A stretch of 64,000 nt of DNA from Pyropia yezoensis (lineage: Eukaryota > Rhodophyta > Bangiophyceae > Bangiales > Bangiaceae), in the NCBI GenBank assembly GCA_009829735.1, contig CM020618.1, positions 6,946,627 through 7,010,626 on the forward strand, written 5' to 3'. Shown here in pieces: positions 1-64,000 of the stretch; positions within the stretch are counted from its first letter, which is position 1; each line of letters starts with the position of its first letter. The position numbers were made by a program, and so were the translations under genes. The notes beneath the pieces were generated by a model. It worked only from the letters and a program-made list of their open reading frames with translations, was not told where the DNA came from and made no database searches.

Positions 1-1051
1 CCGAGGAGGGCAACCAATACCTCCTGGTCATCTGCGATTGCTTCACGAAACTTACGCGAGCGATACCACAGCCAGAGATCACGGCCGTGTCGGTCGCGTC
101 AGCCTTCCTAGATCACTGGGTTGCCGCTTATGGCATCTCAGATAGTACGCTATTGGACAACGGACCGCCATTGGCGTCCGTCCTGTTTCAGGGAGTGCTG
201 GACATGTTGGGGTTTCGCGCAACCTGTGCCACCCCTTACCACCCACAAACTAATGGGCAGGCGGAGAGCTTCAACAAGACTGTTGTTCGGCAGCTGCGCC
301 ACTATGTGAGTGAGCACGTGAAAACGTGGGACCGATACATCTCTACTTTGACTGCTGCCGTCAATTCGCATGTTCACTCTTCTACGAGGGACGTACCCCT
401 CGCTTTTGTGACTCCGCGCCGTGTGCGGCCTATTGCGGTACAGCGGCCGCTCCCAAGTAGGGAGGCTGGTGGCGGGACACCTACTCCTACAGAGATTAAG
501 GTGGAGTTCACTGATAGGCTTGAAAAGCTCATCCCTAAAGTCAGGGCTAAAATGGACAAAGCGCAGAAGCGCTACAAGCGTACTTCGACAAAAGGGTACC
601 TAACGCCAGGCACGCCCCCAGGCAGGGTGACTGGGTGCTAGCATATTTGCATACCCCAACTTGGGGAAAGCTGGTGTTTCAAACGAAGGGACCTTACCGA
701 GTCCTTCGTACGGATGGGCGACGGTTCACCATCGACAGTGACGATGGGATCCGTACAGTGAACGATCAGGACGTGATAAAAGTTGTACCACCTCCTCCAG
801 GCGACCCGACTTGGGCGCGTGCACTCAAGGCGTGCTTTCCGCCGCACCTGCCTGCGGCCAACCAGAGTCCGCAGAAGTACGCGTTCGAAAAGTTCGTCGA
901 CCACGGGTGAGATGAGGATACTAACCGTCTCATGTTGAGGGTGTGCTGGTTTGCCTACGGCGCCAAAAAAGATACATGGGAGTACGTGGAGGACCTCCCC
1001 GCTGAAAAGGTCCGGGCTTACTGCGCCCGGAATTACATCGAACGTGATTGA
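1..1051 (+). pseudogene. Element A pol, 3' end: integrase core and chromodomain, broken
   Basis: Frame 3 from position 3 encodes the Ty3-type integrase core, beginning after the first catalytic Asp. The second Asp is visible in LLDNGPPLAS (about 153-182), and YHPQTNGQAESFNKT (about 237-281) contains the catalytic Glu. A frameshift near 590-635 moves the reading to frame 2, which continues with DWVLAYLHTP and a GPYRVL module like those in the pol tails of X and D. An in-frame TGA at 908-910 interrupts the chromodomain. Reading continues to a TGA at 1049-1051 through VCWFAYGAKKDTWEYVEDL, which aligns with LVRWWGYAQSEDTWE of element D. In D the codon matching the 908 stop is Arg, so a CGA to TGA change is the simple explanation. 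Confidence 0.85.
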
Positions 1052-1092
1052 CCTCCATCAACGAGACGGAAGGCCAGGTGGTCAGGCCCAGA

Positions 1093-1097: not shown

Positions 1098-1460
1098 TGT
1101 AGCACAATAGGGATCCGTCGCACGTCCACTCTCAGGGAACACTCACCAAGGGGGATCGGCACCAACGTCACCGGGAGGCCAAGGTTGCTGTCCTTGGAGC
1201 GCAAGCCACGGGACCAAGATGGGAGCCCAAATGGGAGGGGTTTGTTGTTCTACCTTGGCCGGCGGTGGATTCGCCACCGGCCCCCTCGTTATAAACCCTC
1301 GGAGACACTACTAACTACCCTCCACCCCAAGATGCAAGTCCCTCTGGTCATACGTAACTTATAGATACCGTGACCAGTACGAACTATCAAATTGAAAGTT
1401 AAGGGTTAGAAGTAGCCCCCCTGATATTAGGGTCACAATACGGACAACCATATTGCTACA
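1098..1460 (-). repeat. 3' LTR of element X (363 bp)
   Basis: Bounded by the inverted ends TGTAGCA and TGCTACA, with a second copy at 11559-11921 and a third at 56086-56448. It contains a GC-rich imperfect hairpin (about 1257-1282). There are TATA-like motifs on both strands: TATAAA on + at 1290-1295, and CTATAAGT read on - at about 1357-1364. Confidence 0.95.
1289..1297 (+). promoter_or_regulatory. TATA-like motif reading out of the X 3' LTR toward the antisense ORF
   Basis: TTATAAACC on the + strand lies about 750 bp upstream of the ATG of the antisense ORF. Both X LTRs carry it, but X' has TACAAA at this place. A promoter role is inference from motif and position only. Confidence 0.3.
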
Positions 1461-1472
1461 TATCCCCCCCTT
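1461..1472 (-). other. Polypurine tract of element X
   Basis: Read on the minus strand this is AAGGGGGGGATA, ending exactly where the 3' LTR begins. That is the expected plus-strand primer position. The same tract borders the LTR of X' at 56449 onward. Confidence 0.85.
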
Positions 1473-2047
1473 AGATTCGGCCCGTCCTCGGGTCGAGTTG
1501 CATTCGGGGTACCGAATGTAAGTGGGTCGCGTGACCGTTTACCCGTCGGGTGGGGCTTTGCGCCCCGTCGCGACAGACACCCCTTTTCGAGGTTGTCTCA
1601 GGGGGGTGCCCCCCTTTGCGTGGTACACACACACGATCCGTTTTCCGGACCGTTAAATTCCCGATGCGGGTTGCTGTTCACGCCCCCCCTTTCCGAGGGG
1701 TGGTGCAAGCGGATCCGCCACCAGGTGCCTGGTGGTAGGGGGGCCCCTCTCGTGTGGACGATTGAGTGGGGGGCGGGGGCTGCCCGCGTTGCGTGGGGGC
1801 GGTTGGAGGTGACCCCCCTTACTTACCCCGTGTGTGGGTGTGGCCCCGTCCCGCCCAGGTGCCTGGGTGGAGCGCGGTCGTAGCCCCGTGGGGCGCGGGT
1901 CGACCCGCGTGCCTGCGGCGCTTCTCGTGGCCGTTTGTGGTCATAAGCGCGGGTGTCCGCGCTTCCCTGGCTCGTCCCGGTTATCCCACCGTACCGGGTT
2001 GTAGCCGTCGACGGCTTGTGGGCGCGGGGGACTCCGCACCCGTTATC
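1473..2047 (+). other. Leader between the X polypurine tract and the antisense ORF
   Basis: No ATG-initiated gene is recognisable here. The frame of the antisense ORF is open back to 1766 but only from a GTG. The first part (to about 1770) is the segment conserved in X'. It contains a C/G-rich inverted repeat around 1600-1740. It would be the 5' leader of an antisense transcript. Confidence 0.5.
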
Positions 2048-4495
2048 ATGTCCTATCCCCAGGTGCTTGAAGAGGAGGAAGACCTCCTGATCGGGGAGGA
2101 GATGGAGGACGACGCGCCTGTCGGTCCCGACGCCGCGCGTTACGGGGTGAGCTCGTCTGACGACGACGGGCCTGCGGTGTCCGTCCGTCTGTCGGCCGGA
2201 GGACTGTCGTCCGTGTGCAGCGGCACGACGGTGCCGTCGGCCGGAGGTCAACCCGGTGGTCAACCGCGCGTGGCGGCTTCTACCCCCTCTCTGCCGGCTG
2301 CCCGGATGGAGCCTGGTGCCGGTGCCGGCTCACCGCAGGTACCTCAAGATGGTCCGCCCTGCGGCGGAGGTGGCGACCCGCAGCCGACTCCGGCTGGTCA
2401 CGGTGGTCCGGGGGTCCGGGCGGTGACTCCTCGAGGCGGTCCCGACGTTGACGCGGGTGGTGGTGGCGGTGCGACACCCGGTGCGGTGGGTCAAGACGGT
2501 GCGGGTGTCCGCACGGCCGGGGCTCCGGCTCCGGAGGCTGTCCAAGTGCCTTCCACTTCCGAGGCGGGGGCTACGCCGACGGGTGGTGCCGGTGCCGGTA
2601 CCATACCTGCGGTGCCGCGGGTGTCGAGCGGTCAAGACGCTCCTTCTCCCATGGCGGTTGACACCGGGAGTTACTCCGGGCGGGCGCCCGCCCTTCTTCT
2701 TCCTCCTCGGCCTCGTCCATCTCCGACGTCGGCCCCTCTGCCGGTGGTGCGTCCCCCGGCGCCCCCGATTCTTCCTGGTCCTGCCCGGGTTGCCCCGTTG
2801 GGTGGCGGCGTCGCCGTGGCGGCGGGTCAACCCGCCATGTCGGTGTCCGACTTGGTGGCTCGGGTTCGAGGCCTCACGGTGCAAGAGTCGATGGAGTCCG
2901 ATGGGCGTATGCGGGTGGACTTCCACCTGGTGCATCCCCGTGGAGAATCCTCCCGGCGCGTCAAGGTGGACCCGTGCTGGGAGCGGGAGTTGGTGCGGCT
3001 GGTCAACCAGCCGAACGCGGTCCGGGTGGAACACCATTGGATCCTGAGTCAGCCGGACGACCGGCATGCGCAGCTCTGGCGCACCCGGGTGGGACGGGGT
3101 GAGGTCTACCTCGACCCCAACTTCGGGGTCTGCGACTTGATTGCCCCCGCGTTGCCGCGGGAGATTGACTACCCGGCTAGTGCTCGGGGGATTGCGGCGG
3201 CGGCGGAGCCGGTTGCGTTTGGGGAGACGGTGAGCCGTACCGGTCGGTATCCCGACTTTGACTACTACCCGGGAGAACCCCCGTATCTGTCGTTGACGGC
3301 TCCCTACCCGCCCATGGCGGGGTTGAAGTCGGCGTCGAGTTGGCGACGTAACCATGGTGTCATGGCCGATGCGTTCCGCACGGATATAACGTGTGCGTTG
3401 CAGACCGGCAACGGTCGTGCTCCGGTATACACTCCCGTGCGCCCGCCGCTATGGCAGGAGGGGTGGGAACCCGCCCCTGCTTTCCGGTTTGACACCGGCT
3501 CCTGCCTCCGATACTTCGGGAGTGTGTTGGCCTCCCGGCCGGTCCACCCGTTGCAGGGTACCTTCACCCTTGAGGTTACCCTCGGGCAGGCTTCATCCTT
3601 CTTGCTGTCCGTCCGCCGGCAGGGTCGTCTGTTTCATCTTCCGACGGGTGTCCGTCGGCACATCGCGCAGTTGGGCGTGGATCTGATAGCTGCCAAGACC
3701 GGGTTGGCCCGGGAGTTCGAAGCCCTGCTGGCTGTTCACGATGCCGTGAACTGGGCTGGGGTGTTGGCCCTTCCCCCGTACCGGGACCCGCAGGCTGGGG
3801 CTTCCCCCTTGCCTCGTCACTCGTTGCGTGTCCGGCGTACTCAGCCGGGTGAGCCTAGTTGCCATGGGTGGGCGTCCACCGAGGCCGTTCCTGACCTGGG
3901 TATTCCCATGGTTATCCATGACCCTCTTCAGGTCCTTGCTCCGTGGTTCGGTAACCCGATGCCGGCGGCGGTTGGCCGTCGTCCCCGAGAGTGGGGCTCC
4001 GTGGGTGGGGAGCGTGAGGTGTCCCGTCGTCGGGCGGAGTACCGCCGTGGTTACGGTGGAGCCCCTTCGGTAGGGTCCTACCGGGCCTCGTATCAGGTGC
4101 CACCGGCTCCGGTGGTAGCCGTGTCGGCTCCTATGGCTCCTCTGGCTGCGCCAGTGTCACCTCCCGCCCCTGTCCTACATGACGGGGGTCCCCGTCTCTG
4201 GTATGAGGGCGTTGACGCCCTTGTTACCCGCGCCATGCGTGGGGGTCTCTCTGTTAGCTGGGGGGATATCCCCCCAGGTGCTGCGCTGGTTGGGTCAGCG
4301 CGTTGCTTCGGTGGCGTGCTGGACCGCCTCCAGAAAGCTCTGGAGGACGTGGAGGCTGGCCGCAGCACCCTCGTCCAGCTATGCACCGAGGTAACTCGGG
4401 TGGTCGACCGTCGTGACGTTGCCGACCGGTGGAGCACGGAGGTCTACGCGCTTACGCGTGAGTGGCCTCCCTCGGGCAGTGGGTCTACCCACTGA
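2048..4495 (+). CDS. Antisense accessory protein of element X (815 aa, unknown family)
   Basis: This ORF lies inside element X but on the opposite strand to gag-pol, between the pol 3' end and the 3' polypurine tract. The first in-frame ATG is at 2048 (tatcATGtcc); the frame opens earlier only with GTG. The first 55 residues are acidic (LEEEEDLLIGEEMEDD). Residues about 55-260 are Gly/Pro/Ala-rich and look disordered, and the rest looks folded. Residues about 430-560 align by eye with minus-strand ORFs at 13000-13509 of element A: YFGSVLASRP against HFGSVIMTAS, and SVRRQGRLFHLP against SVQRRGMFWRLP. I recognise no catalytic motif, zinc finger, signal peptide or membrane segment. It is not envelope-like. 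A nucleic-acid-binding, regulatory or capsid-accessory role is possible but unproven. Length, lack of stops and homology in another family argue for a real gene. Confidence 0.75.
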   Translation: MSYPQVLEEEEDLLIGEEMEDDAPVGPDAARYGVSSSDDDGPAVSVRLSAGGLSSVCSGTTVPSAGGQPGGQPRVAASTPSLPAARMEPGAGAGSPQVPQDGPPCGGGGDPQPTPAGHGGPGVRAVTPRGGPDVDAGGGGGATPGAVGQDGAGVRTAGAPAPEAVQVPSTSEAGATPTGGAGAGTIPAVPRVSSGQDAPSPMAVDTGSYSGRAPALLLPPRPRPSPTSAPLPVVRPPAPPILPGPARVAPLGGGVAVAAGQPAMSVSDLVARVRGLTVQESMESDGRMRVDFHLVHPRGESSRRVKVDPCWERELVRLVNQPNAVRVEHHWILSQPDDRHAQLWRTRVGRGEVYLDPNFGVCDLIAPALPREIDYPASARGIAAAAEPVAFGETVSRTGRYPDFDYYPGEPPYLSLTAPYPPMAGLKSASSWRRNHGVMADAFRTDITCALQTGNGRAPVYTPVRPPLWQEGWEPAPAFRFDTGSCLRYFGSVLASRPVHPLQGTFTLEVTLGQASSFLLSVRRQGRLFHLPTGVRRHIAQLGVDLIAAKTGLAREFEALLAVHDAVNWAGVLALPPYRDPQAGASPLPRHSLRVRRTQPGEPSCHGWASTEAVPDLGIPMVIHDPLQVLAPWFGNPMPAAVGRRPREWGSVGGEREVSRRRAEYRRGYGGAPSVGSYRASYQVPPAPVVAVSAPMAPLAAPVSPPAPVLHDGGPRLWYEGVDALVTRAMRGGLSVSWGDIPPGAALVGSARCFGGVLDRLQKALEDVEAGRSTLVQLCTEVTRVVDRRDVADRWSTEVYALTREWPPSGSGSTH

Positions 4496-4807
4496 GGAAT
4501 GCTATTGTTTGTGCGGGAGAGGGCCCCGGCAACCCTTATGGTAGCCGGGTAGTAGTGAGTATAAACTCATCCCCCGCTGGGGGCATTGCTTGCCTCTGTT
4601 TGCTGCCCTGGGAAGTACCCCTTCTGGCTCAGTGGTGCCTTGCCTCCCGTCCAACTTCTTCCGGTTGGTTCATGCTTGGGGAGGTTATCCTCCCTCACTT
4701 TGTGTCTTGGCTTTGGGAGGTCATCCTCCCGTGTAAGCCTCCTAGTTACTTCGATATTATCGGAGTTAGCCTTTACCTTTAAGTTACCTTATTAAGGTTC
4801 AGGTTTT

Positions 4808-4903
4808 ACTTAGTTACCTAAGCTTAGCTCTACTTAGTTACCTAAGCTTGGTTCGACTTAGAAACCTAAGTCTGATTTGACTTAGAAACCTAAGTCTGCT
4901 TTA
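4808..4903. repeat. Four-copy 24-bp minisatellite between convergent ORFs
   Basis: Units start at 4808, 4832, 4856 and 4880. Each opens with ACTTAG(TT or AA)ACCTAAG, an imperfect palindrome (CTTAG/CTAAG arms), followed by a variable 9-nt tail. It lies between the stop of the + ORF (4495) and the stop of pol (4975), where both convergent transcripts would end. A role in termination or 3'-end formation is inference. Confidence 0.85.
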
Positions 4904-4974
4904 ACCATGTCACACCCTACTTAGTAGGTATAAGCCTCACCCCCCAACAGCCGAAGTCGGTGTCGGTTGGGTTG

Positions 4975-7900
4975 TTACAGTAGGCGTCGTCGCCTCATGT
5001 AAGGCATGAGTAGTTGGCGGGGTATATTTGCCGCCTGTTCCCAGGTGGGTGAGTCGTATCCGACCCACATAACCTTGACGTACCAGGGTCCTGGTAGGTC
5101 CGGGTCGGTGTGTCCGACCACGCTCTCTACTTGGTATGGAATCCCATCCGGTCCCACCGGGTCATCTGACCGGTGGGTTGTAAGAGCTTCATGTAGCAAC
5201 CCAGCCGGTACCGGCTGGGGCTGTTCCGGCATCGGAGCAGGTGTGACGTCATTCATGCTGATGCGTTGAATCTCCGTATCGGAGTGTAAGATAACAGAGT
5301 GGTTATCTCTGTGGAGGATCTGGTACGGTCCCTTGACCGGTTGCATAAGCTTGTTCCCTCGGAACTTCTGGTGTCTGATATAGACCCAGTCACCTGTTAC
5401 CAGGGTTGCGTTGCGCACCCGTAGTCGGGCGTCGAAGTTCTTCTTGTATCGAAGTTGTGTTCTGTCAAGGGCACTCTTGAGCTTAGGAATCATCCACGAT
5501 AGCTTGGCCAACCAAGCTAGGTGGATGCGTTCGGCGGGTCGGCCCTTCGGTGTATCATACCGAGTGCACCTGCCTGGCGGCAGCGTCAGGTTACCGACGC
5601 CTAGTGGCATGACCCACTCCAGCGGAGCAATGTTTGTGCTCCGATGTGGCCTGGCATTGTATGCCAGGGTGAGTACGGACAGAAGCCTGTCCCAAGTGTT
5701 CGTGTGCTCTGCCACGTAGCACTGTAGCATCTTGACGATGGTGCGGTTGAACCGCTCCACCTGCCCGTTGGACTGCGGGTGGTAGTCGGATGCCCGACGT
5801 GGTTCGATACCGAACATGCCCAGGACCTTAGTGCAGAATGCCGACGTAAGGTTTGCTCCGTTATCGGAGAGGAGTTGCTTCATGACTCCGTATGCACTGA
5901 TCCAGTGGTCAACCACTGCGTTCATAATCGTGTATGCCGTATCATTCGGGATGGCTGCCGCTCGTGACAGCTTGGTGAATCGGTCAGACATGACCAGGAT
6001 GTACCTGTTCCCTTCTTCCGTTACCGGAAGTGGCCCGAGTATGTCGATAGCGACTTGCTCGTTGGGCCCATCGGGTGGGAATAGCTTCATGGCAGACGCC
6101 TGCCTATGTAGACTCATGCGGTTACGCGCACAGGGGTGGCATCCCCTTACGTGGTCGACCACGTCGACGGCCATTGCTGGCCAGTAGAAGAACCTTCGCA
6201 TTGCTGCGAACATACGTGAACCCCCCGGGTGTCCGGCTGTAGGGTTCTCATGTTCTCGTTCCATGACGGCTTGCCGTAAGGACACGGGAACCACGACTTG
6301 ATGTCGTCCATCGGCGGGTGCCCGCCGGAATTTGAGTCCGTCTTCGTTCTCGGAGAAGATGCCGGCCGTACCGGCCAGGAGGTTAGCACGATGACGTCTA
6401 CAGTCATCGTCGTTGGCCTGTGCCTCGCGGAAGTCCGCGAGGGTCAATGGGCACGCAAGGTGTGCCATGGTATGGTCAGCCATACCCTGGGTAGCATTAC
6501 CCACCATGCACACCGGTACCACCGGGATGTCCTCGTCCACCGGGCGGGTATCCCCGCTCGGGGTGTCGAGTCGAGACAACGCGTCTCCGAGGTGGTGGGT
6601 TGACCCAGCCTTATACACCGTGCGGTAGTCGTGCTCGGCCATCTTCAGCCTCCATCGGGCTAGCCTCCCATGGCTATCGGAATCCTTGTCACCAAGGTTG
6701 AGGAGCCATCGTAGGGGTTCGTGGTCGGACCTCACGATGAACCTGGAGCCCTCCAGGTATGGACGGAGCAGTTGCACTGCCCATATAACTCCGAGGCATT
6801 CACACTCGGTGGCACTATAGTTCCGCTCAGCCGGGTTGAGTGTCCGGCTGAAGTACCCTACCGGACGTAGGTCCGGGATAACGTTATCGGTACCGATCAA
6901 CGTCTCTCCCTGTAACAGGGTGCATCCCACTTGTGTATCACATGCATCGACATCGATGACGAAGGTACCCCGTCTATGCGGTAACGCAAGGACGGGTGGG
7001 GCTAGTAGGGCTCGCTTCAGCGACTCGAATGCCTCCTCTTCGCTAGGCGAAGGGGGTTGGAGTACCTTGGGTAAGGTACTGCTCGTAAGAACCGTTAACG
7101 GTTTAGCTATCCGAGCGAAGTCCTTGACGAACCGTCGGTATACATTGCACATTCCCAGGAAGCTCTTGAGCTGCGTCTGGGTGTTAGGGAACCGGGCATC
7201 CCGGAGTGCCCGGGTATTGGCTTCGAGTACCCCTAGTTTACCAGGGGTTATCTGGTGGCCCAGATATTCGACCGTCTGTTGGAAGAAGGCGCACTTCTTC
7301 AGACGCAGGGTTACCCCGGCGTTCCTCAAGAGGGTGAGTACCTCGTCAACATGTTGTACATGGTCATCCATGTTACGCGAGAAGACGATGACGTCATCGA
7401 GGTACACTAGGCAGTTACGCCACTTCACCCCAGACAGTATGATGTCGATAGCCCGCTGGAATGTAGCGGGGGCGTTGGACAATCCGAAGGGCATCCTTAG
7501 GAACTCGTACACTCCACTGTGACAGACGAATGCCGTCTTGGGGATATCCTCGTCCGCCACCGGGATCTGCCAGTATCCGGCATTGCAGTCGATGGTGGTA
7601 AACACCGTAGCCTCCCCCAGGGAGTCGATGCATTCATCCATCCTTGGTAAAGGGTATGAGTCCTTCTTGGTAACCAAGTTGAGGCGTCGATAATCGATGC
7701 AAAACCGAGGGGTTTGATCCTTCTTCGGCACAATAACGACTGGGGCACCCCATTCCGACATCGAAGGTCGGATCACCTTAGCTTCACTCATCCTCTTCAC
7801 TTCTCCATCAACGATCTCTCGTTGCATAGGTCCCGCTCGGTGCGGTTGTGAGCGGGCGGGTCGTGCGCCTGGTACCAGGTCTATACGATGTTGGGTTGCC

Positions 7901-9141
7901 CCAATGGTCCCCAAGGCCCCGCCTGTCCACATAACGTCATGCTTTCTTAGCATCCGTCGTACCCCTTCGGCTACCGAAGGGGGAAGGTGGTCGAGGTCAG
8001 CCTCGGCCAGTGCCTTCAAGGCCTCTTGGTCCTTTGGCGGCAGGTCCGCCGGAGCCGCCGATGGGTTAGGCTTCCCGTCATCGGGTTGCTGTCGCTCGGT
8101 GGTCTCGGCGACCGCCAGTACTTCAAGTGGTTCCACTTGACCTTCCTTATCAGGGGTAAGGATATCTCCTTCGTAGAGTTCGGCAATCCCGAGGATAGTT
8201 CCCTTCGGGAGGGTGACTGCCTTACGGCGGTAGTTCGCCATCACTAGGAGGGACGACCCTCCTGCTGGGAGGTCTATGAGACCGTTGGCCATGGTCAACC
8301 CATGGCGGTTGTACGTCCGTAGGTTGGACTGGACTCTGCAGATGCCTGCGAGGTCGCAGTTAACCGGGAGGACTGTCTCTGACAACGGCTCAAAGCGAGT
8401 TCGCTTGGCCAACCGAAGTGTCTTCGGCTCGACGCTTGCGTACACCTCAGCCACGTTAACGTGGCTTCCTTGTAGCGTCAGGTCCCTGACGATAGCCGTG
8501 TGTCCTCGCTTCGTCCCGTCGGCTTCTTGAAGCTCGACGGTCCTCCGGCCTGGCCGGATTGCATCAACGTGAACGTTGATGAAGGTGCACCCCAGTATGC
8601 AGGGCACCGATAGCGTTTCACATACCAGGAAGTCAACTTCCGTGGTGAGATCCCCGATGGTAACCTGCAGCGACATCGCTGCGGTCGTACGAATGAGTCG
8701 ACCATTCGCGTCCTTGATGGTGGGTCCCCGAGTCACTCTGACTCGTGGAAGCCACTTGTCCGGGAGGGTATCCTTCCGGATAAGGTTGGGTCCAGCCCCT
8801 GTGTCCAGTACAGGGTAGTACGATCGTGTCGACTGGGGGTCAACCCCCAGGGTGGCTGATACCTTGAAGTTCTCCAAGGTAAACAACACATGTCCTACAC
8901 CGATATCCGGTGTAGCTCGGGCATCCTGAACAGGGCCCTTGTCTGGTTCAACGTGACGGGGCTTCCCGTCCTCTCCTCCCAACCTTGGAGGTTGGTCATC
9001 AATCCCCTGACGCCGTGTCGTCGGGGCCGGAAGGTGTACCCGGGGGTTGATGCGGCGTCGGCTCAACCGCGCTCTCCGTGGGGCTTTCCCCGCGGTACTC
9101 CGGGGTGGCTTGCTTGGGTAACCCCAGCGCCCCCCGGTCAT
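4975..9141 (-). CDS. pol: Element X Pol polyprotein: protease, RT, RNase H, integrase, chromodomain
   Basis: 1388 aa, uninterrupted. The aspartic protease has VLDTGAGPNL (about residue 110). The reverse transcriptase has RFCIDYRRLN, MPFGLSNAPATFQRA and the catalytic YLDDVIVFS (about 579). RNase H has VIDVDA (about 728), an ATECECLGV Glu and the C-terminal GDALSRL Asp. Integrase has an HHCC zinc module (AGHPG...CHPCARN, about 970), DILGPLP (about 1034), LSDNGA (about 1093) and QVERFN with the catalytic Glu (about 1130). A chromodomain-like tail (YVKVMWVGYDSPTWE) ends the protein, placing it among chromoviruses. Pol is in the -1 frame relative to gag. Its ATG lies 8 nt after the gag stop, but the frame is open through the slippery site, so a Gag-Pol fusion by -1 frameshifting is expected. 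Confidence 0.95.
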   Translation of the reverse strand: MTGGRWGYPSKPPRSTAGKAPRRARLSRRRINPRVHLPAPTTRRQGIDDQPPRLGGEDGKPRHVEPDKGPVQDARATPDIGVGHVLFTLENFKVSATLGVDPQSTRSYYPVLDTGAGPNLIRKDTLPDKWLPRVRVTRGPTIKDANGRLIRTTAAMSLQVTIGDLTTEVDFLVCETLSVPCILGCTFINVHVDAIRPGRRTVELQEADGTKRGHTAIVRDLTLQGSHVNVAEVYASVEPKTLRLAKRTRFEPLSETVLPVNCDLAGICRVQSNLRTYNRHGLTMANGLIDLPAGGSSLLVMANYRRKAVTLPKGTILGIAELYEGDILTPDKEGQVEPLEVLAVAETTERQQPDDGKPNPSAAPADLPPKDQEALKALAEADLDHLPPSVAEGVRRMLRKHDVMWTGGALGTIGATQHRIDLVPGARPARSQPHRAGPMQREIVDGEVKRMSEAKVIRPSMSEWGAPVVIVPKKDQTPRFCIDYRRLNLVTKKDSYPLPRMDECIDSLGEATVFTTIDCNAGYWQIPVADEDIPKTAFVCHSGVYEFLRMPFGLSNAPATFQRAIDIILSGVKWRNCLVYLDDVIVFSRNMDDHVQHVDEVLTLLRNAGVTLRLKKCAFFQQTVEYLGHQITPGKLGVLEANTRALRDARFPNTQTQLKSFLGMCNVYRRFVKDFARIAKPLTVLTSSTLPKVLQPPSPSEEEAFESLKRALLAPPVLALPHRRGTFVIDVDACDTQVGCTLLQGETLIGTDNVIPDLRPVGYFSRTLNPAERNYSATECECLGVIWAVQLLRPYLEGSRFIVRSDHEPLRWLLNLGDKDSDSHGRLARWRLKMAEHDYRTVYKAGSTHHLGDALSRLDTPSGDTRPVDEDIPVVPVCMVGNATQGMADHTMAHLACPLTLADFREAQANDDDCRRHRANLLAGTAGIFSENEDGLKFRRAPADGRHQVVVPVSLRQAVMEREHENPTAGHPGGSRMFAAMRRFFYWPAMAVDVVDHVRGCHPCARNRMSLHRQASAMKLFPPDGPNEQVAIDILGPLPVTEEGNRYILVMSDRFTKLSRAAAIPNDTAYTIMNAVVDHWISAYGVMKQLLSDNGANLTSAFCTKVLGMFGIEPRRASDYHPQSNGQVERFNRTIVKMLQCYVAEHTNTWDRLLSVLTLAYNARPHRSTNIAPLEWVMPLGVGNLTLPPGRCTRYDTPKGRPAERIHLAWLAKLSWMIPKLKSALDRTQLRYKKNFDARLRVRNATLVTGDWVYIRHQKFRGNKLMQPVKGPYQILHRDNHSVILHSDTEIQRISMNDVTPAPMPEQPQPVPAGLLHEALTTHRSDDPVGPDGIPYQVESVVGHTDPDLPGPWYVKVMWVGYDSPTWEQAANIPRQLLMPYMRRRRLL

Positions 9142-9149: not shown

Positions 9150-11333
9150 TTACTCGTTTCCCGCCCTTGGTAGGGTGCTGTCCGCCGGGACATCCGGCTG
9201 AGGAGGTGCCCCCTCGACGGCCAGTACTCCACCTGGAGCTGGCTGCCTACCCGGTGCGGGTCCGGGTGCTCGGGGGGGATACCCCCCGGTGGATGCCTTG
9301 CGTTGCGCCGCTGCCCGCCGAGACTCCTCGGGGATGAGTGGGCAGGAAGACACCCAGTGCTGGGGATCCCCACACAACATACATCCGGACGTGCCGGTCC
9401 CCCCTTGAGGTCGCATCGGGGTAGCCCCGTAGCTACGGTTGCCTCCCTCGGGCGCCCGAGTGCCTGCTCCCTGGTAGGCCTTGGGTCCTTGGGTCAACCG
9501 GAACATGGACTCCCCCAACCGGTTGGGTCGGCCCGCAATCTGCGGGGGTGCCTCCGTGCGCACCGCCCATGTTGGCAAGGGTTGGTGAGGGTTACCCGTC
9601 ACCGGGGAGTACCCCGTAGTCCGCACATACGGGACGCGCCGTCCCGTTCCTTCGTTGACCTGGAACTGGGTTCCAGCCGGGGCGATGTACGCTACCGTAC
9701 CATGTTCATCAATCACCGGCGTCGCCGGTAGCAACAGGTGGCCCTGTTGGTCGACTAGAGGGTCACCCTCACCAATAGGGGTATGTTCGGTCGCCACCAG
9801 TACTGGTGCGGCCTTACGTTCCACCTTCTCTTGCCTCGGTACCGGGGTAAGACTGGGCTTGCCTCCCTCACCCTTGGGCTTCGGGGCCAAGGCACACTCC
9901 GGGTGTAGAACCCGGTAGGCGTCCCCTAGGGACTTGCACATATGCATCAGTCGACTGAAGTTCGTCCGTGCCGTGTTAGCGCCCCGTGCGGATATCCGCA
10001 CGTAGTTGGGTACTCCTGCGAACAGGATGGCCCGTAGCTCCCCTTCTCCGAGGAGCTTCCCCAGCTCGTAGTCGAGCTCTTGGATCCGGCGTCCAAACAT
10101 CTCCTCATCCTCCCAGGACTGGGCGGTGGCAGTGCGAAGGGCCCGATAGTGGTCCTCGCACTTGTCCTCACTGAGGTAGCTGCTCAGCAGCTCCTTCAAT
10201 ATCCCACGGTAATCCATGGGGGTGGCCGCGACCCTCATTCCCGGCATCGGGGATGCCTGGCGAAGAATGCCTCGCACCCGTTCATCAACAAAGAACGGGA
10301 GGATCTCCAGGGCCAGCCCCTCGTTAACGAGCGCCTTGTCTGCGGCTGCCTTGAAGCTAGTCAAGAAGCCGATGACTGCCAACGGGCGTCCGTTCGGCCC
10401 CCCGAACATAGGGACTCCCTTCATAAGGGTCTGCATAGAGCGGATCGCCCGATGCGACGTATTACGCATCGATTCCGACACGGTGGTAGAGCGGTCCTCC
10501 AAACGATAACGTTCCGGAGTAAGAACCGACCGGAAGACCTCGTTGACGATCTCCGTGTCAGCGTCCTGGATATCCAGTCGCTTAGCCAGTTGATGAGCGA
10601 ACTCATCGGACTCCATCCGCTTCAGTAGGCTCGCAGTTACCTGCGCGGTCATAGCTTCCACCACTGAAGATGGTACTTCAGGCGTCGGCACCTCGGGAAC
10701 CCGAGTTGCCGGGCCTCCTTCGTCGTGGGGGTACTGCGAGAGGGTACCCCCTCCCCCCATAACCGACTCTCCCCCGGCGTACGTATCTGCCGGGTCGTGT
10801 CCGCGGAGTCCGCTTCGGGTGCTCCGAGCGTATCGCTCCGTGTGACTCCGTTCCAACTCTGCCGACGAGTCGGACCCATACCCCATTGTGTCCGGGGGTT
10901 GTCCAGGAGTAGCAACCCCGGGATTGACCCTGGTGGACTCCGAAAGTAGTCCGGCCGGTTCGAACCGTACCGGTGTGGGAGGAACACGACGGGGTCCCGT
11001 CGTGTGCCGTGTTGACATCAACACTGCCATTGCGTCCTCCGTCCGATCTTGACGGGCGTCGAGCCCGGAAAACCGGGCCTCGATGCGGGCCAATGATGCC
11101 ATCAGGGAATCCCCTGGTGAAGGAGGCGGCGGAGTGAGGTCGGTCGACGACAGTTGAGGCGGGCCCCCGCCTCCTGCCGTCCGAGCCGTGCCAAACGTCG
11201 ATCCGGCACCGGAAAGCATTGGCGTCTCAATGTTATCGATCGGGTTCCCGATCCCGGTTCCCGTAGTCACCTCCGGAGTCGGCGTCGACGCCGATCCGTC
11301 ATCTTGAACGTTCCCCGTCTCTTGGGTAGACAT
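9150..11333 (-). CDS. gag: Element X Gag polyprotein (727 aa)
   Basis: The start is the ATG at 11333 (gactATGtctacc); a GTG two codons upstream is ignored. The N-terminal 230 residues are Ser/Thr/Pro/Gly-rich. The capsid-like middle has the Ty3 retrotransposon gag pattern, with LNEGLALEILPFFVDERVR and a later region around AQSWEDEEMFGRRIQELDYELGKLL. One CCHC zinc knuckle, CMLCGDPQHWVSSC, lies about 80 residues from the end. The last codons are GCG GGA AAC GAG TAA, embedding a -1 slippery heptamer. Gag forms the particle and binds RNA in this class of element. Confidence 0.9.
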   Translation of the reverse strand: MSTQETGNVQDDGSASTPTPEVTTGTGIGNPIDNIETPMLSGAGSTFGTARTAGGGGPPQLSSTDLTPPPPSPGDSLMASLARIEARFSGLDARQDRTEDAMAVLMSTRHTTGPRRVPPTPVRFEPAGLLSESTRVNPGVATPGQPPDTMGYGSDSSAELERSHTERYARSTRSGLRGHDPADTYAGGESVMGGGGTLSQYPHDEGGPATRVPEVPTPEVPSSVVEAMTAQVTASLLKRMESDEFAHQLAKRLDIQDADTEIVNEVFRSVLTPERYRLEDRSTTVSESMRNTSHRAIRSMQTLMKGVPMFGGPNGRPLAVIGFLTSFKAAADKALVNEGLALEILPFFVDERVRGILRQASPMPGMRVAATPMDYRGILKELLSSYLSEDKCEDHYRALRTATAQSWEDEEMFGRRIQELDYELGKLLGEGELRAILFAGVPNYVRISARGANTARTNFSRLMHMCKSLGDAYRVLHPECALAPKPKGEGGKPSLTPVPRQEKVERKAAPVLVATEHTPIGEGDPLVDQQGHLLLPATPVIDEHGTVAYIAPAGTQFQVNEGTGRRVPYVRTTGYSPVTGNPHQPLPTWAVRTEAPPQIAGRPNRLGESMFRLTQGPKAYQGAGTRAPEGGNRSYGATPMRPQGGTGTSGCMLCGDPQHWVSSCPLIPEESRRAAAQRKASTGGYPPRAPGPAPGRQPAPGGVLAVEGAPPQPDVPADSTLPRAGNE
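9156..9162 (-). promoter_or_regulatory. -1 ribosomal frameshift heptamer GGGAAAC (element X)
   Basis: Minus-strand codons GCG GGA AAC give the canonical X XXY YYZ pattern G GGA AAC, two codons before the gag TAA. A -1 slip leads into the open pol frame (CGA GTA AGA GGA AGG ATG ACC). Elements B and D have the same arrangement. Confidence 0.8.
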
Positions 11334-11539
11334 AGTCACAATCAGTCAACCGACGCAACGACCACCACGAATAAGAGAGCGAGGGGGTAGATTGGGGAGA
11401 GTAACAGTAGGTCACAGTCACAGGTAAAAGCTCAACACAATCGATCAGGTCGCAACACCACGAGTACAAGAAAAGGACCGGATCCCTATCCGTGTGCCAG
11501 GGCCGAAGACGGCGTCACCACAAGGGTGACGGAAACCCG
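11334..11539 (-). other. 5' leader of element X between primer-binding site and gag
   Basis: Roughly 200 nt of untranslated leader. I see no conserved structure here beyond short runs. Confidence 0.6.
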
Positions 11540-11558: not shown

Positions 11559-11921
11559 TGTAGCACAATAGGGATCCGTCGCACGTCCACTCTCAGGGAA
11601 CACTCACCAAGGGGGATCGGCACCAACGTCACCGGGAGGCCAAGGTTGCTGTACTTGGAGCGCAAGCCACGGGACCAAGATGGGAGCCCAAATGGGAGGG
11701 GTTTGTTGTTCTACCTTGGCCGGCGGTGGATTCGCCACCGGCCCCCTCGTTATAAACCCTCGGAGACACTACTAACTACCCTCCACCCCAAGATGCAAGT
11801 CCCTCTGGTCATACGTAACTTATAGATACCGTGACCAGTACGAACTATCAAATTGAAAGTTAAGGGTTAGAAGTAGCCCCCCTGATATTAGGGTCACAAT
11901 ACGGACAACCATATTGCTACA
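11559..11921 (-). repeat. 5' LTR of element X (363 bp)
   Basis: The second copy of the 1098-1460 LTR, followed by the TSD GAGTA. On the minus strand it should carry the sense promoter; the TATA-like CTATAAGT is present. Confidence 0.95.
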
Positions 11922-12006: not shown

Positions 12007-13846
12007 CTAGGCACGCATGCTAGACTTTCCACCACCACGACCCTCGCTCTCACGCGGAGGCGAGCGACGAGACCAACGCCGGTAACGGTCACCACTCTGC
12101 GGTGGAGCAGGCGCCTCCAAGTCGGAGTCGTCGTGAGTCTCTCGATCACGAGTGCGACGACGAGGGCGGCCACTTGCCTGCTTGGTCTTGCGCGCAAGTT
12201 GGTGGCGCGGACGACGGACGGACTCGGCTTCGGACGGGGTGGATGAATCCGACTTGGAGTATGACATCTCGTCATCCGACACGCAGGGAGAGCGCCGCGA
12301 GTGGCGGCGACGTCGACGAGGAGGAGAGTAGGCACGGCTCGCCCGACGCTTGCCGCGCCCAAGTGGGGCCGACGAGGGCATGATGGAGCCGATGCGAGCC
12401 AACTCGGCCTTCATGAATTCCTCAACCGACTCGCAACTTGCAGTCGAGACGACAGTGCGAACGCGCTCTTCAAGTTGATGGGTCTCCGAAGTCTGGAGAG
12501 TCGCTGCCGACGCGCCTAGCCACGAAACGGTGCGCAACAACGTGGTGGTAAGCATCTCAGAAGTCAATGGCGCGGACGGCAACACCAACTTGGGGTAGAC
12601 CGTACGTAGAGTAGCCCCCACGTTGGGGGACACAGGCGTGGATGTCTCGACCGCAATGCCGATCGGGATGTCCCCGTGCGGCTGGAACGGAAAAGGAGGA
12701 AGAGGAGGGGCTCTCCGACTTGGCGGAGCCCGAGGGTAGCCGCGACCTCGAGTTGAGGCCGCCGCGGCACCTTGCACCCGAAGCTCCTCAGGGTCGGCGA
12801 CCGCAACCACAAGGTTCTTCTCCGGGGGCGGCGCAGTGTGGCCCTCCACAACTGGGGCATACGGGGAGTTCCCGATGCCCAACCCCTTCTTGAGTACCAC
12901 GCGACCGTCGTGAAGTTCACGGCCGACCAAGAAAAACTGGCGAAGTGAGCCGTCGCCGTTGGGCCCACGAGAAGGTCGGCGCAACTTGAGCTTGATGCTC
13001 TACCACTCGATGAGCTTGCGGAGCTTCAACATCTCCTCGAGTAGAATGAGTCGACCCGACAAGCACCCCTCAGCAACTTGCCGAGGGGTGAGCTGCTCCA
13101 AACCTTGGATCAGGCGGGGCGGGAGGCGCCAGAACATCCCACGCCTCTGGACGCTGGCCAGCCAGGTCGACATGACCTCGAGGAGCCCCAGTGTTGCCAA
13201 CATGGCAAACACTATGTGGTCCGGGCTAGCCGTCATTATGACGGAGCCAAAGTGGTCCACCAAGCTCGGTAGTAGCGCGGGGAACCCATAGGGGACCTCA
13301 AATTTAGGCCACCACTCGGGCTTTTTTGGGTAGAGTAACTCCTTGTTCGCCGGCGCTTGTTGCGCAAATTCAAGTTGAGCCGAGGTCACCAAGTAGGGAC
13401 CTCGTCGGATGTCCTTCTCCATCCGCACGTCGAAGTCATGGATGAGCGGATCGGAGGTCCTGAGGAACGGGGGGCACGTTGCCCCCCCGTCCCATGTGAA
13501 GGTCGACACGTCGCCGGGGCTCTCTGTGGTACCCCCCGCGGGTCAACAAGTTGTTGACCCGCTGCACATTTTTGACCTCCTCGTCGTCAAAGAAGGCAAA
13601 CTGGTCCGTCTTTACATCGGGAGGGAATCCTACCCTACGGGGGAACTTCTCCCGTAGGCGCCCCCAGATGCTATCCATCGCTGTGTCAACTATGCTGCAG
13701 CGGACAATTGTCAAGCCCTCCTCGTACAGGGGCCAGGGTGGGTAGTACCACCTCCCCAGGGCATCCCGTAGAGTAACGGGGCCTGCCACCACGTCGAGGT
13801 GACGTACCGCTGGACAGCGAGTTGCGCCGCCTGGCGAGTGCAACAC
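12007..13846 (-). pseudogene. Antisense accessory ORF of element A, broken
   Basis: Once X is excised, this region lies just downstream of A's pol and reads against it, the same arrangement as in X. Minus-strand segments 12007-12984 and 13000-13509 share one frame and are separated by a TAG at 13000-13002. Segment 13436-13846 is in another frame, so there is also a frameshift near 13430-13510. The middle segment resembles the X antisense protein (HFGSVIMTAS...LASVQRRGMFWRLPP against YFGSVLASRP...LSVRRQGRLFHLPT). The C-terminal part is Arg/Ser-rich and basic (YSPPRRRRRHSRRS), like an RS or nuclear-targeting tail, and X lacks this tail. No ATG was found for the N terminus, and it is shorter than in X. 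Confidence 0.7.
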
Positions 13847-13904: not shown

Positions 13905-14372
13905 TGTGGCAGAACTGGCCCCACGCAGGGGGGCAGAGCGCGCCATAATGGGACGGGGGACATCTGGTCTGACTCGTTCCTCCCTTGGCATTTGATCCCG
14001 AATTTCCCGAAGTCAGGGATACTTTGCTTGATAGTAAATCCAACATGGACTTGAGGGGTTTCTGCATTTTACCGTCTTGAATATTCGTGTGGCCCGGTGG
14101 GCATGTGCTGTGGTGGGAGATTCTGAGTGGCAAGATTTTGAGGGCCTCTGGGGGGATAACGGGAGGGACTGCGGGGCTTGGCCTCGCTTCCCTGTCCCGA
14201 CCAAAAAACTGTTGGCCCACACACCATCTTCTTGTTTACGAGTGGGGGGATTGCCCCACAACAGAGACAGCGTGTGTGCTACCTGCACGTCTTCCGGTTC
14301 CCCAGACACGGGAGGCAGCCCTTGTGCATCACCTAAAGTTGGGTACTGGGTGAGCGAGGGTTTTTTGCCACA
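13905..14372 (+). repeat. 3' LTR of element A (468 bp)
   Basis: Runs from TGTGGCAGAACTGG to TTTTGCCACA. It aligns along its length with the 5' LTR of B (51802-52270), with many substitutions. A partial, inverted third copy is at 15387-15481. Confidence 0.85.
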
Positions 14373-15386: not shown

Positions 15387-15481
15387 GGGATCAAATGCAA
15401 AGGGAGGAACGGGTCAGACCAGTTGTCTCCCGCCCCAGTATGGTGCGCCCTGCCCCCCTGCGTGGGTCCAGGTCTGCCACA
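15387..15481 (-). repeat. Partial LTR of element C
   Basis: The reverse complement of this segment matches the first about 95 bp of the A and B LTRs (TGTGGCAG... to CATTTGATCCC). Confidence 0.75.
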
Positions 15482-23050: not shown

Positions 23051-23081
<31 letters not shown>

Positions 23082-23086
23082 GCGCT

Positions 23087-23117
<31 letters not shown>

Positions 23118-40616: not shown

Positions 40617-40823
40617 TGTCCTGGTGCAAACCAAGGCGCGTTCGCCATTCCATTCTCGGACCAGACGGCCACACGCCGTGACCCTAAAGGTCCCCGTGCA
40701 CCCGCATAGATCCCCACTCAATCTCCCCTCGATCGGGTCGATCGCGGGGCCCACGCAAATCCCACTCGGACATTCTGTCCCACTGCGGGGTCACCGGTGC
40801 CGTACTGACCGTATCCCCCAACA
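40617..40823 (-). repeat. Copia 3' LTR (207 bp)
   Basis: On the minus strand it runs from TGTTGGGGGATACGG to CCAGGACA. It matches 45208-45414 throughout. Confidence 0.95.
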
Positions 40824-40832
40824 CTCCCCCAC
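40824..40832 (-). other. Copia polypurine tract
   Basis: The minus strand reads GTGGGGGAG directly before the 3' LTR. Confidence 0.75.
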
Positions 40833-56762: not shown

Positions 56763-57410
56763 CGTGGCGTTCTGAGCCCCTGGGACCGTTGGAACCCGGG
56801 AGACTGACTTGGGACCCGGCTGGCAGCGTTACGTGGAACCACGCGCTGGCCGAGGATCCCTGCATCGGTGGCCCGGGGCAGTGGCGACACGCCCGGTGCC
56901 CTGATTGGTCACCCGGAGCGGTGGACTTGCCGGGTTGGGGCATACTGACCTTCGCGTTATTTGTCTGATTTTTCGCATTTGTTTCCCTTGCGTGATTTCG
57001 TGTCTTTCCCTTTTTTCCCACTGGGTTTTTTTTGGGGATTGACATTTGTGTGTGGGGGGATTTCGCTTGCTTTTTGTGTGTTGGCCCGGTGAGCGGCCGG
57101 TGCCTTGCTGGCACTTGGCCCGCTGGGGGCGCCCTCTGGGGGCCTCGCTCAGGGCCCCTGGAGGGGCCAGGGGGGGAGGTTCTTGAGGGGTGCTCCGGGG
57201 TTCTCCCCGGGGCCATCTTGTAAAATCAACAGTACTTTGGGTTCCTTCTCCCTCGGGCTTTTGTCCTGTTTACCTTTGCCTCTTATCGTGGCGGGCGAGT
57301 GGATCAGCAAGGGCTCTTACCTGTTCCTTCCTGGGCTTCGGACTGTGGTCTCTGAGTGTGTGGTTGTGGCTTCTGGGTCCGGGAATCTGGGTTCCATTAC
57401 GCTACATTTA
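56763..57410 (+). other. Junction region and probable 5' LTR of element D
   Basis: The last bases before the D primer site include GCTACA (57401-57406), a plausible LTR end. I could not fix the LTR start because the 3' LTR lies beyond the window. A T-rich stretch occurs at 56945-57050, with GC-rich sequence at 57090-57220. No gene is seen. Confidence 0.5.
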
Positions 57411-59254: not shown

Positions 59255-62200
59255 CGGGGGGCGGATCGAAACGGTCCCCTCCCCATCGTCGGGATAGTAC
59301 CTGCTCGTTTGCAACTGCGTTGGGGTTCTCCAATATCTTTAAGGGCCCCGTTATACCTGTACGTTCTGAGTCTCCTATTACTTTGAAAAACCCTTGTTCC
59401 TGTTTGCCCTCTCTGGCACGAAGATCCAAGTCTGGGCTCCGACGTCGGATGGGAATGAAGAAGCCCTATGGGTTCAAGGGTACCTTGCTTGTACTGCGCA
59501 AGAGAAACTTTGCTTTGAACGCTTTGATTCGACTGGACACGGAGGAACCGAAGGACACTACGGCTATTCTGGACACTGGTGCAGGGCCAAGCGTGGTACG
59601 TGAGGATGTCCTCCCTGAAGGGTGGCGACGACTGGCGTCAAGGGCCCCCAAGTCGACGCATGTGTGTGACGCCTCTGGTCAGCTGTTACGGGCCCGTGGG
59701 ATCGTGGAACTATCGGTGATCGTGAACGGGAAGCCGATGGAGTTCGAGTTCCTCGTGGTCAGGGCCCTCTCGGTACCGTTGATCCTCGGGATGGACTTTC
59801 AGAAGGAACACGTTAAGGCGATCTACCCTGGAACAGAGTCTGTGCTTTGGAACCTGGGTTTCCTGACCTACGCCAAGAGAACGTGGGACGGAAAGACCCA
59901 GAACGCTTTTCCTGTGACGGGTAACCCTGTACGCCGAGATCCTTCTGCCCTGTAACTCTCCAAGGCTGTAACTTTGGCACCCCGATCCCTCCAAGCGGTC
60001 TACGTCAAGTGCGGAACGAACGGACGTTGTTTACTATATGAACGACCGCACAAGATGTCTAAGAAAGGGCTCCGTCTGCATAATGCCCTGGCTGACGTAC
60101 GGACCCGGCGGAACTTCCGGATCCACATCATGAACATCTCGAACCGGGCGGTCAACTTGCCCAAGAATTTCGCCGTAGGCCTCGCTATCCCGTACGACGG
60201 ACCCGTGCTCGAGGTCCCCACTGGTTACTTGCCGGCCCCTAGTGAGGGGGCGGACCCTATTGTTACGCTGGGAACAGAGCAAGGGAACACGTCGGGTCAA
60301 GCGTCGTCACCGGAGGGCGAGACCCCTGAGGGATCCGATGGAACCACGGTACCCGAGCCGGATACAAAGGGCAAGACGTCAGACGGAACCCCGGTCAAGA
60401 TGCCCAAGGTGGCGTACGAGCTGATCCCGCCTGAACTTCACCAGGCCGTACGTGAACTTTTGGAACGCTACAAGGGGCTGTGGGACGGACAACTGGGACG
60501 TATTGACGTAACACCCCACCGGATCACTTTGAAGGACGGGGCCAAGCCTATTCGTTCCCAACCGTACCGTACCGGGCTCCATCATCGGGACCTGATCAAG
60601 GAACAAGTGGAAAAGCAGACCAAGCTCGGGGTCATTGAGCCGTCTCAGGCTGAGTGGTCGTTCCCGGTCGTCTTGGTCCCCAAGCCCGATGGTACCCCGC
60701 GGATCTGTGTTGACTACCGCAGACTGAACGATGTGACGGTTAAGGACACGTACCCGTTACCAAGGATGGACGAATGTATCGACTTTCTGGGAGAGGCTAC
60801 CGTATTTCCGATGCTGGACGCGAACTGTGGTTACTGGCAGATCCCTGTTTCTGCCGAGGACCAGGATAAGACGACGTTCACGTGTCACGAAGGAATCTTC
60901 CGGTACATCAGGCTCCCCTTTGGTCTCACGAACGCTCCGGCTACGTTTCAACGGGCCATTGACATGATCCTGTCCGGGGTTAAGTGGAAGACGTGCCTCG
61001 TGTACCTGGACGACATTATTGTTTTCTCTAAGAACCCTACGGAACACCTGGAGCACCTGGAAGAGATCTTTGGGCTACTCGCTAAGGCCGGTGTTTCCCT
61101 GAAGGCCAGCAAGTGCTTTTTGTTCCATGACGAGGTTGAGTACCTTGGCCATATCGTCGGCAAGGGCCAGCTACGCGTGAACGAGAAGAACCTAGTCGGG
61201 CTACGGGAAGCCAAGACACCGAGAACCAAGAAGGACCTACGCAGTTTCCTGGGAATGTGTAACGTTTACCGTCGCTTTGTTAAGGACTATGCTCAGGTTG
61301 CCCGCCCTCTGTTGGCTATGAAAAGTACCAAGGTACCCGACCCTCTGCCTCCTTTTACTCCGGCTCAGACGGACGCGTTTGAGGAACTGAAGTACCGTCT
61401 GACCCACACACCGATCCTGGCGCTTCCGCGACGCTCGGGCCAGTTTATTGTGGATACCGATGCGAGCGCTGCCCAGATTGGTTGCGTTTTGCTACAGGAA
61501 TAAGAGGACGGGGCCTACAAGCCCGTGGGTTACTGGAGCAGGGTCCTGACACAAGCGGAACGGAACTATAGTACCACGGAACGCGAGTACCTTGCTGTTG
61601 TCTGGGCTCTCTTTTTGTTACGACCGTACCTAGAGGGGACACGCTTCGTTGTACGTACGGACCACACCGCTTTGAAGTGGATGTTACACATGGACGGAGC
61701 CCATGGACGTTTGGCTCGTTGGCGACTCCGGTTAGCTGAGTACCATTATACCGTTGAGTCCCGTCCTGGTCAACACCACCATGCTGCAGACTTTATGTCA
61801 AGGCTAGAAACTACGGGACACGACCGAGGACCTATACCTGAGGAGATACCTTCCCTGTTAACCATGGCCAACTTCGTTACCGGATGGGTCCGCCCGAACT
61901 TCAAGACACACAAGAGGTACCCACCGCTGTCGATTGACAGGATCCTCAAGGCTCAGGGGAACGATAAGCGTTGCAAGGAACTTCAGAAAGAGATGAGCCG
62001 GAACGCTAACTCGCGGTACGGGGAAACACCTGAAGGGTTACTTGTACGACTGGCTCCTCTGGACCGAGCCGTTCAGATTGTGGTCCCCAAGGAACTACAG
62101 CAGGAGATACTGACTTTGGAACATGAACCAGGCCACGCGGGACACCCAGGGATTAACAAGATGTATACCTCTATGAGACGAACGTTCTACTGGGAAACTA

Positions 62201-63459
62201 TGGTGGCCGATGTGCACGCTTTTGTTACCAACTGTACCGCTTGTTCAAAGGGCAAGGTTCAAGGAAGGCGACGTACCAATCCGTTGAAGCTGTTCCCCGC
62301 AACGGATCCCTTTAAGGACGTATGCCTTGACCTGTTGGGACCCTTGCCTGAGACAGTGAACGGGAACAAGTACCTTTTGGTTATCGTGGACAGGTTTACC
62401 AAGCTGACCAGAGTGGTACCCATTAGCAGTCAGGACGCGGAAGTGGTGGCCTCGGCCTTTTTGGATACGTGGGTCGCTTCTTACGGGCCCCCGGAAACGT
62501 TACTGACTGACAACGGGCCCCAGCTGGCGTCCACGCACTTCCGTGGCGTCTGCAGTATGCTTGGGATCAAACACGTAACGTCTACCACGTACCATCCGCA
62601 GACCCAGGGACAAGTGGAACGCTTTAACCGTACTATCGTGGCCCAGTTACGTACGTACATTGAGGACCATCCGGACCAGTGGGACAAATTGGTTTCCGTG
62701 CTTACCGTGGCGTACAGTACCAGGCCACAACAGAGTACCGGCGTGGCCCCATTTGAGTTCGTTATCCCTGAACGCGTGCGTACCTTTGCACTGGACCGGC
62801 TCCCAGGGTCCCCGTATCCCAAGGAGTTCATTGGCATCGCACGCCAGGTACGCGAGATGAGACGGGCCCACCTAAGGAACCTAGCTTTTACGTTACGCAA
62901 GAACCTTGACCTGGCCCAGCGTCGGTACAAGCGGGGTTACGATAAACGGGTTACGCCTGTGAACGAGACCCTTCGCGTGGGAGACTGGGTGTACGTGGAT
63001 ACCAACGACGACAGTTGGAAGAAACTGGACCAGAGGGTCAAGGGTCCCTATCGGATCGTGGACCGGGATGGGCACACGTTCACGGTACTAGTTGAAGGGA
63101 TCCGTGACCGGGTCAGTAGTGACCATGTGGCCCGTGCACCCACACCCTCTGGCCAGACGGATTCCACGTCCATGTTACATGGTCCGCAGGAACCGGTTGT
63201 ACCCCTGGACCTCGAGGACTCTGGCACCCCTTTTGTTTGGGAACGTTTCTTGGGGCACGACAGGGACCAGGAAGGGAACCTTTGGCTCTTGGTACGCTGG
63301 TGGGGTTACGCCCAGTCCGAGGATACCTGGGAACCTTACCACAAGTTCGACAGGGCCAAGGTTATCCAGTACTGTGAACGCGTTGGGACCGAACCTCCAC
63401 TGCGGGAGGAGGGGGCCATCGTACTACTGGAACCGTTCAAGGCTATCTATGCTGTGTAG
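59248..63459 (+). pseudogene. pol: Element D pol: protease, RT, RNase H, integrase, chromodomain, with two in-frame TAA
   Basis: A single frame, open across the gag end, interrupted by TAA at 59953-59955 and 61501-61503. Protease is AILDTGAGPSVV (about 59560-59595). RT has RICVDYRRLN, LPFGLTNAPATFQRA and YLDDIIVFSK (about 61003-61032). RNase H runs from IVDTDAS, through the second TAA, to TEREYLAVV and DFMSRL. Integrase has the HHCC module (HAGHPG...CTACSKGK), LDLLGPLP, LTDNGPQLAS and GQVERFNRT. The chromodomain is LLVRWWGYAQSEDTWEPYH (about 63280-63340). Both stops can be explained by one transition from a Gln codon. The domains are otherwise complete, so this copy died recently or the stops are assembly or read artefacts. 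Confidence 0.85.
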
Positions 63460-63882: not shown

Positions 63883-64000
63883 CTAGTACCTACGGAAACG
63901 ACTGTCGGGACGAGAAGACTCTTCCTCGTCCATGTCGTCTCGACCACGGACACGAGAACCTTCCTGGGTCCCCGTCCAGGCACGTCGCGCGGCCGCCTCG
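63883..64000 (-). CDS. Possible C-terminal tail of an antisense accessory ORF in element D (partial)
   Basis: The minus frame is open from the window edge to a TAG at 63885-63883. It encodes about 38 residues, including RVRGRDDMDEEESSRPDSRF then RRY. This resembles the tail of the A antisense ORF (HDDSDLEAPAPPQSGDRYRRW) and has the right place and orientation. The ORF is short, charged sequence aligns easily, and the body of the ORF lies outside the window. Confidence 0.4.
   Translation of the reverse strand, partial: EAAARRAWTGTQEGSRVRGRDDMDEEESSRPDSRFRRY

Follow-up and report, generated by a model that had tools for sequence, protein, structure and literature searches.

Three families of Ty3 retrotransposons in the red alga Pyropia yezoensis carry homologous open reading frames (ORFs) antisense to gag-pol, between pol and the 3' long terminal repeat (LTR), and the antisense frame is under purifying selection in all three. 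We examined these ORFs in a stretch of 64,000 nucleotides (hereafter the window; contig CM020618.1, positions 6,946,627 to 7,010,626), which holds an element of each family, designated X, A and D. What is new here is a separate antisense protein family in red algae; the slot itself is already known in flowering plants and a fungus. No published description of a red-algal antisense gene of this kind was found, in a search that took in few of the subscription journals.

Element X is a Ty3 element on the minus strand in which both LTRs, a target-site duplication (TSD), the primer-binding site (PBS), the polypurine tract (PPT), and open gag and pol frames were all seen:

1098..1460, minus strand: 3' LTR of X; a plus-strand TATAAA at 1290 faces the antisense ORF and is a candidate promoter
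1461..1475 (limits approximate), minus strand: PPT of X, from the sequence
2048..4495, plus strand: antisense accessory ORF of X, 815 amino acids (aa), with a low-complexity N-terminal portion of about 280 aa and a conserved core at about 350-640
4975..9141, minus strand: pol of X (protease, reverse transcriptase, RNase H, integrase), an open frame with Pfam matches
9150..11339, minus strand: gag of X, an open frame related to the A-type and D gags
11559..11921, minus strand: 5' LTR of X, from BLAST and sequence, with the PBS just inside

The LTR pair shows a single mismatch across a 364-bp BLAST match, the TSD GAGTA flanks the element at both ends, and the PPT and PBS adjoin the left and right LTRs, respectively. 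Pfam domains for reverse transcriptase, RNase H and integrase were found in pol, with the protease scoring 25.3 bits, just below the cut-off of 28.2; the order protease-reverse transcriptase-RNase H-integrase, together with the LTRs, PBS, PPT and TSD, is that of Ty3/gypsy elements. X is thus a young, complete-looking Ty3 element, inserted within element A. Its antisense ORF is intact, reading 815 aa from an ATG, and lies opposite gag-pol between pol and the PPT. The TATAAA of the X LTR, on the strand of the antisense ORF, has no counterpart in the D LTR or in the scanned stretch of the A LTR. Elsewhere in the window, what is apparently a truncated X copy is bordered directly by a Ty3 pol frame (55389-56090) and by the D 5' LTR; it consists of an X-family LTR with about 310 bp of the inner 3' part (56085-56761, 93.6% identical to 1091-1776).

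The insertion of X splits element A, leaving its integrase at the left edge of the window and its 3' LTR from 13906. The A antisense ORF is broken into three pieces by a frame change and a TAG:

1..1092, plus strand: integrase (end of pol) of element A, separated from the rest of A by the X insertion
12010..12984, minus strand: C-terminal piece of the A antisense ORF, with an Arg/Ser-rich tail
13003..13509, minus strand: core piece of the A antisense ORF
13439..13846, minus strand: N-terminal piece of the A antisense ORF, in another frame
13906..14372, plus strand: 3' LTR of element A, at least this far; matches 51802-52270

Element D extends past the right edge of the window, near which its antisense ORF ends exactly at 63883 and runs on beyond the window, for a total of 615 open residues:

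56764..57406, plus strand: 5' LTR of element D, 99.5% identical to the 3' LTR at L031 2426-3068
59974..63459, plus strand: pol of element D, two open frames in the window (59974-61503 and 61525-63459)
63883..64000, minus strand: C-terminal end of the D antisense ORF, the remainder lying beyond the window at L031 110-1957

In X, in D and in the A-type element L032, the antisense slot between pol and the 3' LTR was seen from both sides; in L035, L036 and L037, it was seen from the pol side, with the ORF antisense after pol. These results agree with a preliminary description of this DNA, which had reported the 815-aa ORF of X, a broken ORF in the same slot of an element A whose LTR is unrelated to that of X (the two have no BLAST match), and the possible tail of a third such ORF in D. 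Two further arrangements were observed around A and D. At 13905-15481, A/B-type pieces abut in opposite orientation (an LTR piece, a piece of gag in reverse and an inverted copy, 95 bp long, of the start of the LTR). Directly past the D 3' LTR lies an X-like element (L031:3073-4501, 83% identical to window 1779-3190), the start of whose antisense ORF is 80% identical to X over residues 1-244, after which the frame changes.

The homology of the X and A proteins, suggested earlier from alignment by eye, proved significant, as did that of the other two pairs of families. The core piece of A matched the X types with P 8.9e-4 in hhalign and matched X at 1e-4 in BLASTP; neither of the other two A pieces, each compared alone, matched the X types. 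An unbroken A-type relative, P0010, gave BLASTP values of 4e-9 against X and 7e-7 against P0004, and on its own yielded P 2.5e-5 against the X types by profile comparison. A-type proteins matched the D antisense ORF at 3e-9 and 2e-10, and further BLASTP comparisons gave 5e-10 for L032 with D and 5e-9 for A type with X; X and D antisense proteins had no direct BLASTP match at 1e-3. Profiles built for each family aligned collinearly in every pair (D-A, P 4.6e-7 over 213 columns; X-A, 1.8e-6 over 207; D-X, 5.4e-5 over 161), with scores of 61, 57 and 47, respectively; the best score among the 59 column shuffles run for each pair was 24-27, and the reversed-profile controls (one per pair) scored 16-28. 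The common stretch comprises a PPYL motif and the core as far as NWAGV in X and IEWES in A, and between D and A it extends on to a PY motif. A genome search with a 170-aa piece of the D core returned 115 places, the last 10 of which have E values of 1e-4 to 9e-4 and 25-28% identity; four of these ten lie in a 724-residue open frame, typical of A-type copies. Judged by frame length, these weakest matches look like A-type copies and would give an independent sign of the link between D and A.

The pols of X, A and D are 39-50% identical, their gags are related (P 2.6e-10, 2.8e-27 and 4.2e-8), and X and D have the PBS core TGGTGGAGCAGCAGGGG in common. Because pol and gag are related as well, the antisense gene appears to have been inherited with the rest of the element, a view taken from these similarities rather than from a tree. 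We also read nine stretches following other integrases, chosen among the 150 best matches listed. Six of them (L050-L054 and L056), which have what we take to be a chromodomain, contain no antisense homologue in the 4.2 kb after the integrase, some of it nested DNA; in L048 and L049 the stretch leads into X copies. The antisense frames of the ninth, a fourth family (L055, G000:C2:16547700-16551900), showed no significant link to the family (P 0.25-0.53). The pol end of L055 is 67% identical to A-type pol, and its two antisense frames (274 and 262 residues) occupy the same slot.

Long frames are favoured by GC-rich DNA, and GC content is 68% at 2001-4000, so the ORF could be spurious or a mirror of a sense gene. 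We regard this explanation as refuted: the X ORF sits inside an open frame of 909 residues, whereas the maximum in 300 first-order Markov simulations of 1461-4974 was 412; X, A and D are joined by profile homology; and it is in the antisense frame that selection is seen, with 10-40 stops (both sequences counted) in the remaining five frames of six D-type pairs. For the D type, we compared 13 open ORFs as stop-to-stop frames (78 pairs; L046, a duplicate, and L037, which has a stop, were excluded). The ratio of nonsynonymous to synonymous substitution rates (dN/dS) ranged from 0.25 to 0.58 over all pairs and from 0.25 to 0.45 between D clades, where dS is at least 0.9. When all six frames were evaluated in the six pairs, the antisense ORF frame had the lowest ratio (0.26-0.51), its lack of stops being a result of choosing open ORFs; the -2 frame gave 0.40-0.61 with 28-34 stops, and the other four gave 0.95-2.17.

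The other two families behave similarly. The three A pieces, pooled, have a dN/dS of 0.27 relative to L032, compared with 0.35 for the A integrase relative to L032 pol. Copies of X are young, differing at a median of 22 per 2445 bases, with a stop in 3 of 30; across these 30 copies the corresponding ratio of differences (pN/pS) is 0.47, and changes fall at the three codon positions in the proportion 41/39/70. The X-like copy beyond D, whose ORF is in two pieces in different frames, gives 0.21 over residues 259-383. Selection on the antisense gene, which the preliminary description had predicted, is therefore evident, with dN/dS well below 1. In the D gene, the N-terminal 108 codons are the least constrained (0.33-0.69). 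Between D and L035 the ratio is 0.08 for pol and 0.26 for the antisense gene (dS 0.89 and 1.04), and between D and L036 it is 0.08-0.10 and 0.28; the antisense gene is kept, but at the protein level it evolves at about three times the rate of pol.

Copies were sought in the whole genome (107.5 Mb, 11 contigs), all counts being of best-scoring candidates. The X-type search returned 55 places, all covering residues 1-815 and 49 of them free of stops. For a 170-aa piece of the X core, the best 150 places match at 99-100% identity; the open frame around the match has at least 815 residues at 105 of them and is shorter at the other 45 (below 600 residues in 25), indicating that part of the X copies are broken. 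The A-type search with P0010 gave 76 places, 74 without a stop, and the D-type search gave 72 matches among those listed, with 100 to 39% identity and many stops. For D we also took the best 150 of 3527 candidate pol ends, some of which are pieces of one element: the gene was present at 78, a replacement segment at 39, neither at 33 and both at none. At those 78 places, the core lies antisense within 4 kb downstream (median 999 bp), and never sense or upstream. Among these best-scoring candidates, retention of the ORF is good in the X and A types and mixed in D.

Four gene-less D copies (L057-L060), picked for a long pol frame, retain only some 108 codons from the start of the gene, the rest having given way to a segment of about 700 bp (for instance L057:326-1029, and likewise in L058, L059 and L060). 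The segment has 41 matches in the genome, and its versions in the D and L035 clades are related (82% over about 430 bp). As the antisense frame through it is open for 326 residues in L057 and L059 but interrupted in L058 and L060, the segment is unlikely to be a conserved gene. Since this start of the gene (about 108 codons) and the region upstream of it are preserved in the four copies, antisense RNA may still arise from them, and it could be the transcript that matters, by double-stranded RNA or antisense regulation, with the protein incidental; roles for double-stranded RNA have been discussed for plant antisense ORFs (PMC7264820). Purifying selection at the codon level, in one frame, over hundreds of codons and in three families, argues against that explanation, which we consider decidedly improbable.

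The antisense protein, which had not been recognised on first inspection, has no significant match to a Pfam family; the weak matches were DUF6214 (E 0.089) and DUF5518 (E 0.19), under the cut-off or weak. No solved structure in the PDB matched below E 0.4, the best two being designed helical repeats (E 0.42 and 0.81), and no relatives were found in the viral contigs or genome contigs searched. Six of the database relatives come from Pyropia vietnamensis; the relatives in that species are of X type and carry the annotation "hypothetical protein". Could the protein belong to the Transposase_28 (TRP28) antisense family of plants, as a member so distant that sequence methods miss it? Its hydrophobic pattern may resemble that of TRP28, an impression gained by eye. 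Slot and orientation are also those of the Retand antisense ORFs, in which TRP28 is present in 97% of the clusters (PMC11963269). However, the TRP28 profile (PF04195) had no match in the whole genome at E<=10 or in the 16 family members scanned at E<=1, both single-profile tests, and we think such membership unlikely.

Derivation from gag is unsupported (P 0.03-0.62, the lowest value being for the A type against D and A-type gag). The lack of significant similarity to gag or any Pfam family points to an origin elsewhere, as would be expected if the ancestor shared by the X, A and D families had captured a host gene; yet no clear homologue outside the elements was noticed among the best matches listed, most hit contexts being unread, and such a capture seems to us doubtful. 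An env-like gene, which would be sense and have a membrane span, was ruled out, because the ORF is antisense and has no obvious span: the best 19-aa hydropathy values in the antisense proteins are 1.29, 1.23 and 1.16. The usual limit for a membrane span is about 1.6.

Given homology in three families, a common slot and orientation, and selection at the protein level, we lean, with moderate confidence, towards a protein-coding accessory gene that is probably ancestral in one lineage of Ty3 elements in Bangiales and is kept because its protein helps the element. Transcription would begin on the side of the 3' LTR or leader and proceed towards pol. The protein may be a nuclear one that acts in trans, affecting the RNA or transcription of the element or opposing silencing, a role of the kind proposed for certain accessory and antisense proteins of other retroelements. 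Weak hints of a nuclear role are a KRRK in D, an Arg/Ser-rich stretch in A and the lack of an obvious membrane span, and the existence of D elements lacking most of the gene is consistent with a product provided by neighbouring elements. We accordingly favour, in qualified terms, a nuclear, trans-acting regulator or helper.

Several observations weigh against this accessory-gene reading. The simple pattern used finds no basic cluster in X. The structure models were too poor to use (mean pLDDT, the predicted local distance difference test, 40.5 for X residues 295-815 and 33.0 for P0010), only a C-terminal helical stretch of X reaching 65-89. There is hardly any constraint on the N-terminal part of X: in the X-like copy, the ratio for residues 1-239 is 0.63 in the ORF frame, and three other frames yield 0.63, 0.71 and 0.75, values so close that the comparison does not single out the ORF frame there. 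Finally, the 700-bp segment replaces most of the gene at those 39 of the 150 D pol-end places, 7 of them with a pol frame of more than 1400 residues, so the gene is not needed in cis in every element. A tentative extension, possible though speculative, is a two-form system in which gene-bearing elements would supply the product to gene-less sisters with intact pol, both forms persisting in at least two D clades.

Two other features of the window were observed. At 40617-45422, a 1470-aa minus-strand ORF between direct repeats of about 215 bp (99% identical) looks by eye like an intact Copia element. An open frame of 3108 residues, rich in Ala and Pro, spans 22043-31369, with an 18-bp tandem repeat near 22726-23217.

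The D family amounts to a natural experiment: a single genome holds close relatives that have the gene and others that lack it, both groups including elements with a long open pol, and this makes the gene's function testable. Among known systems, the closest in arrangement are the antisense ORFs of the plant Ty3 elements Retand, Grande and RIRE2, which occupy the same slot as the red-algal gene (PMC7264820, PMC11963269), in keeping with the remark in the preliminary description that some plant Ty3/Tat elements have such ORFs. Their function is described as unknown, with a nuclear or regulatory role proposed (PMC7264820, PMC11963269). The red-algal gene differs from them in having no TRP28 match and no relation by the sequence tests made. 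Boty, an element of Botrytis likened here by position alone, likewise has an antisense ORF in the interval from pol to the 3' LTR (cited in PMC7264820). The parallel with the antisense genes of the HTLV type and with CERV of Cer1, accessory proteins with nuclear roles, is functional only. CERV lies in sense orientation. It is required for nuclear export of the genomic RNA (PMC10309623), and antisense genes are named for HTLV-1, HTLV-2 and HTLV-3, along with the nuclear APH-2 (PMC11963269). Set beside these systems, a red-algal family under selection in three families of retrotransposons points either to repeated origins of such genes or to a greater age than has been assumed.
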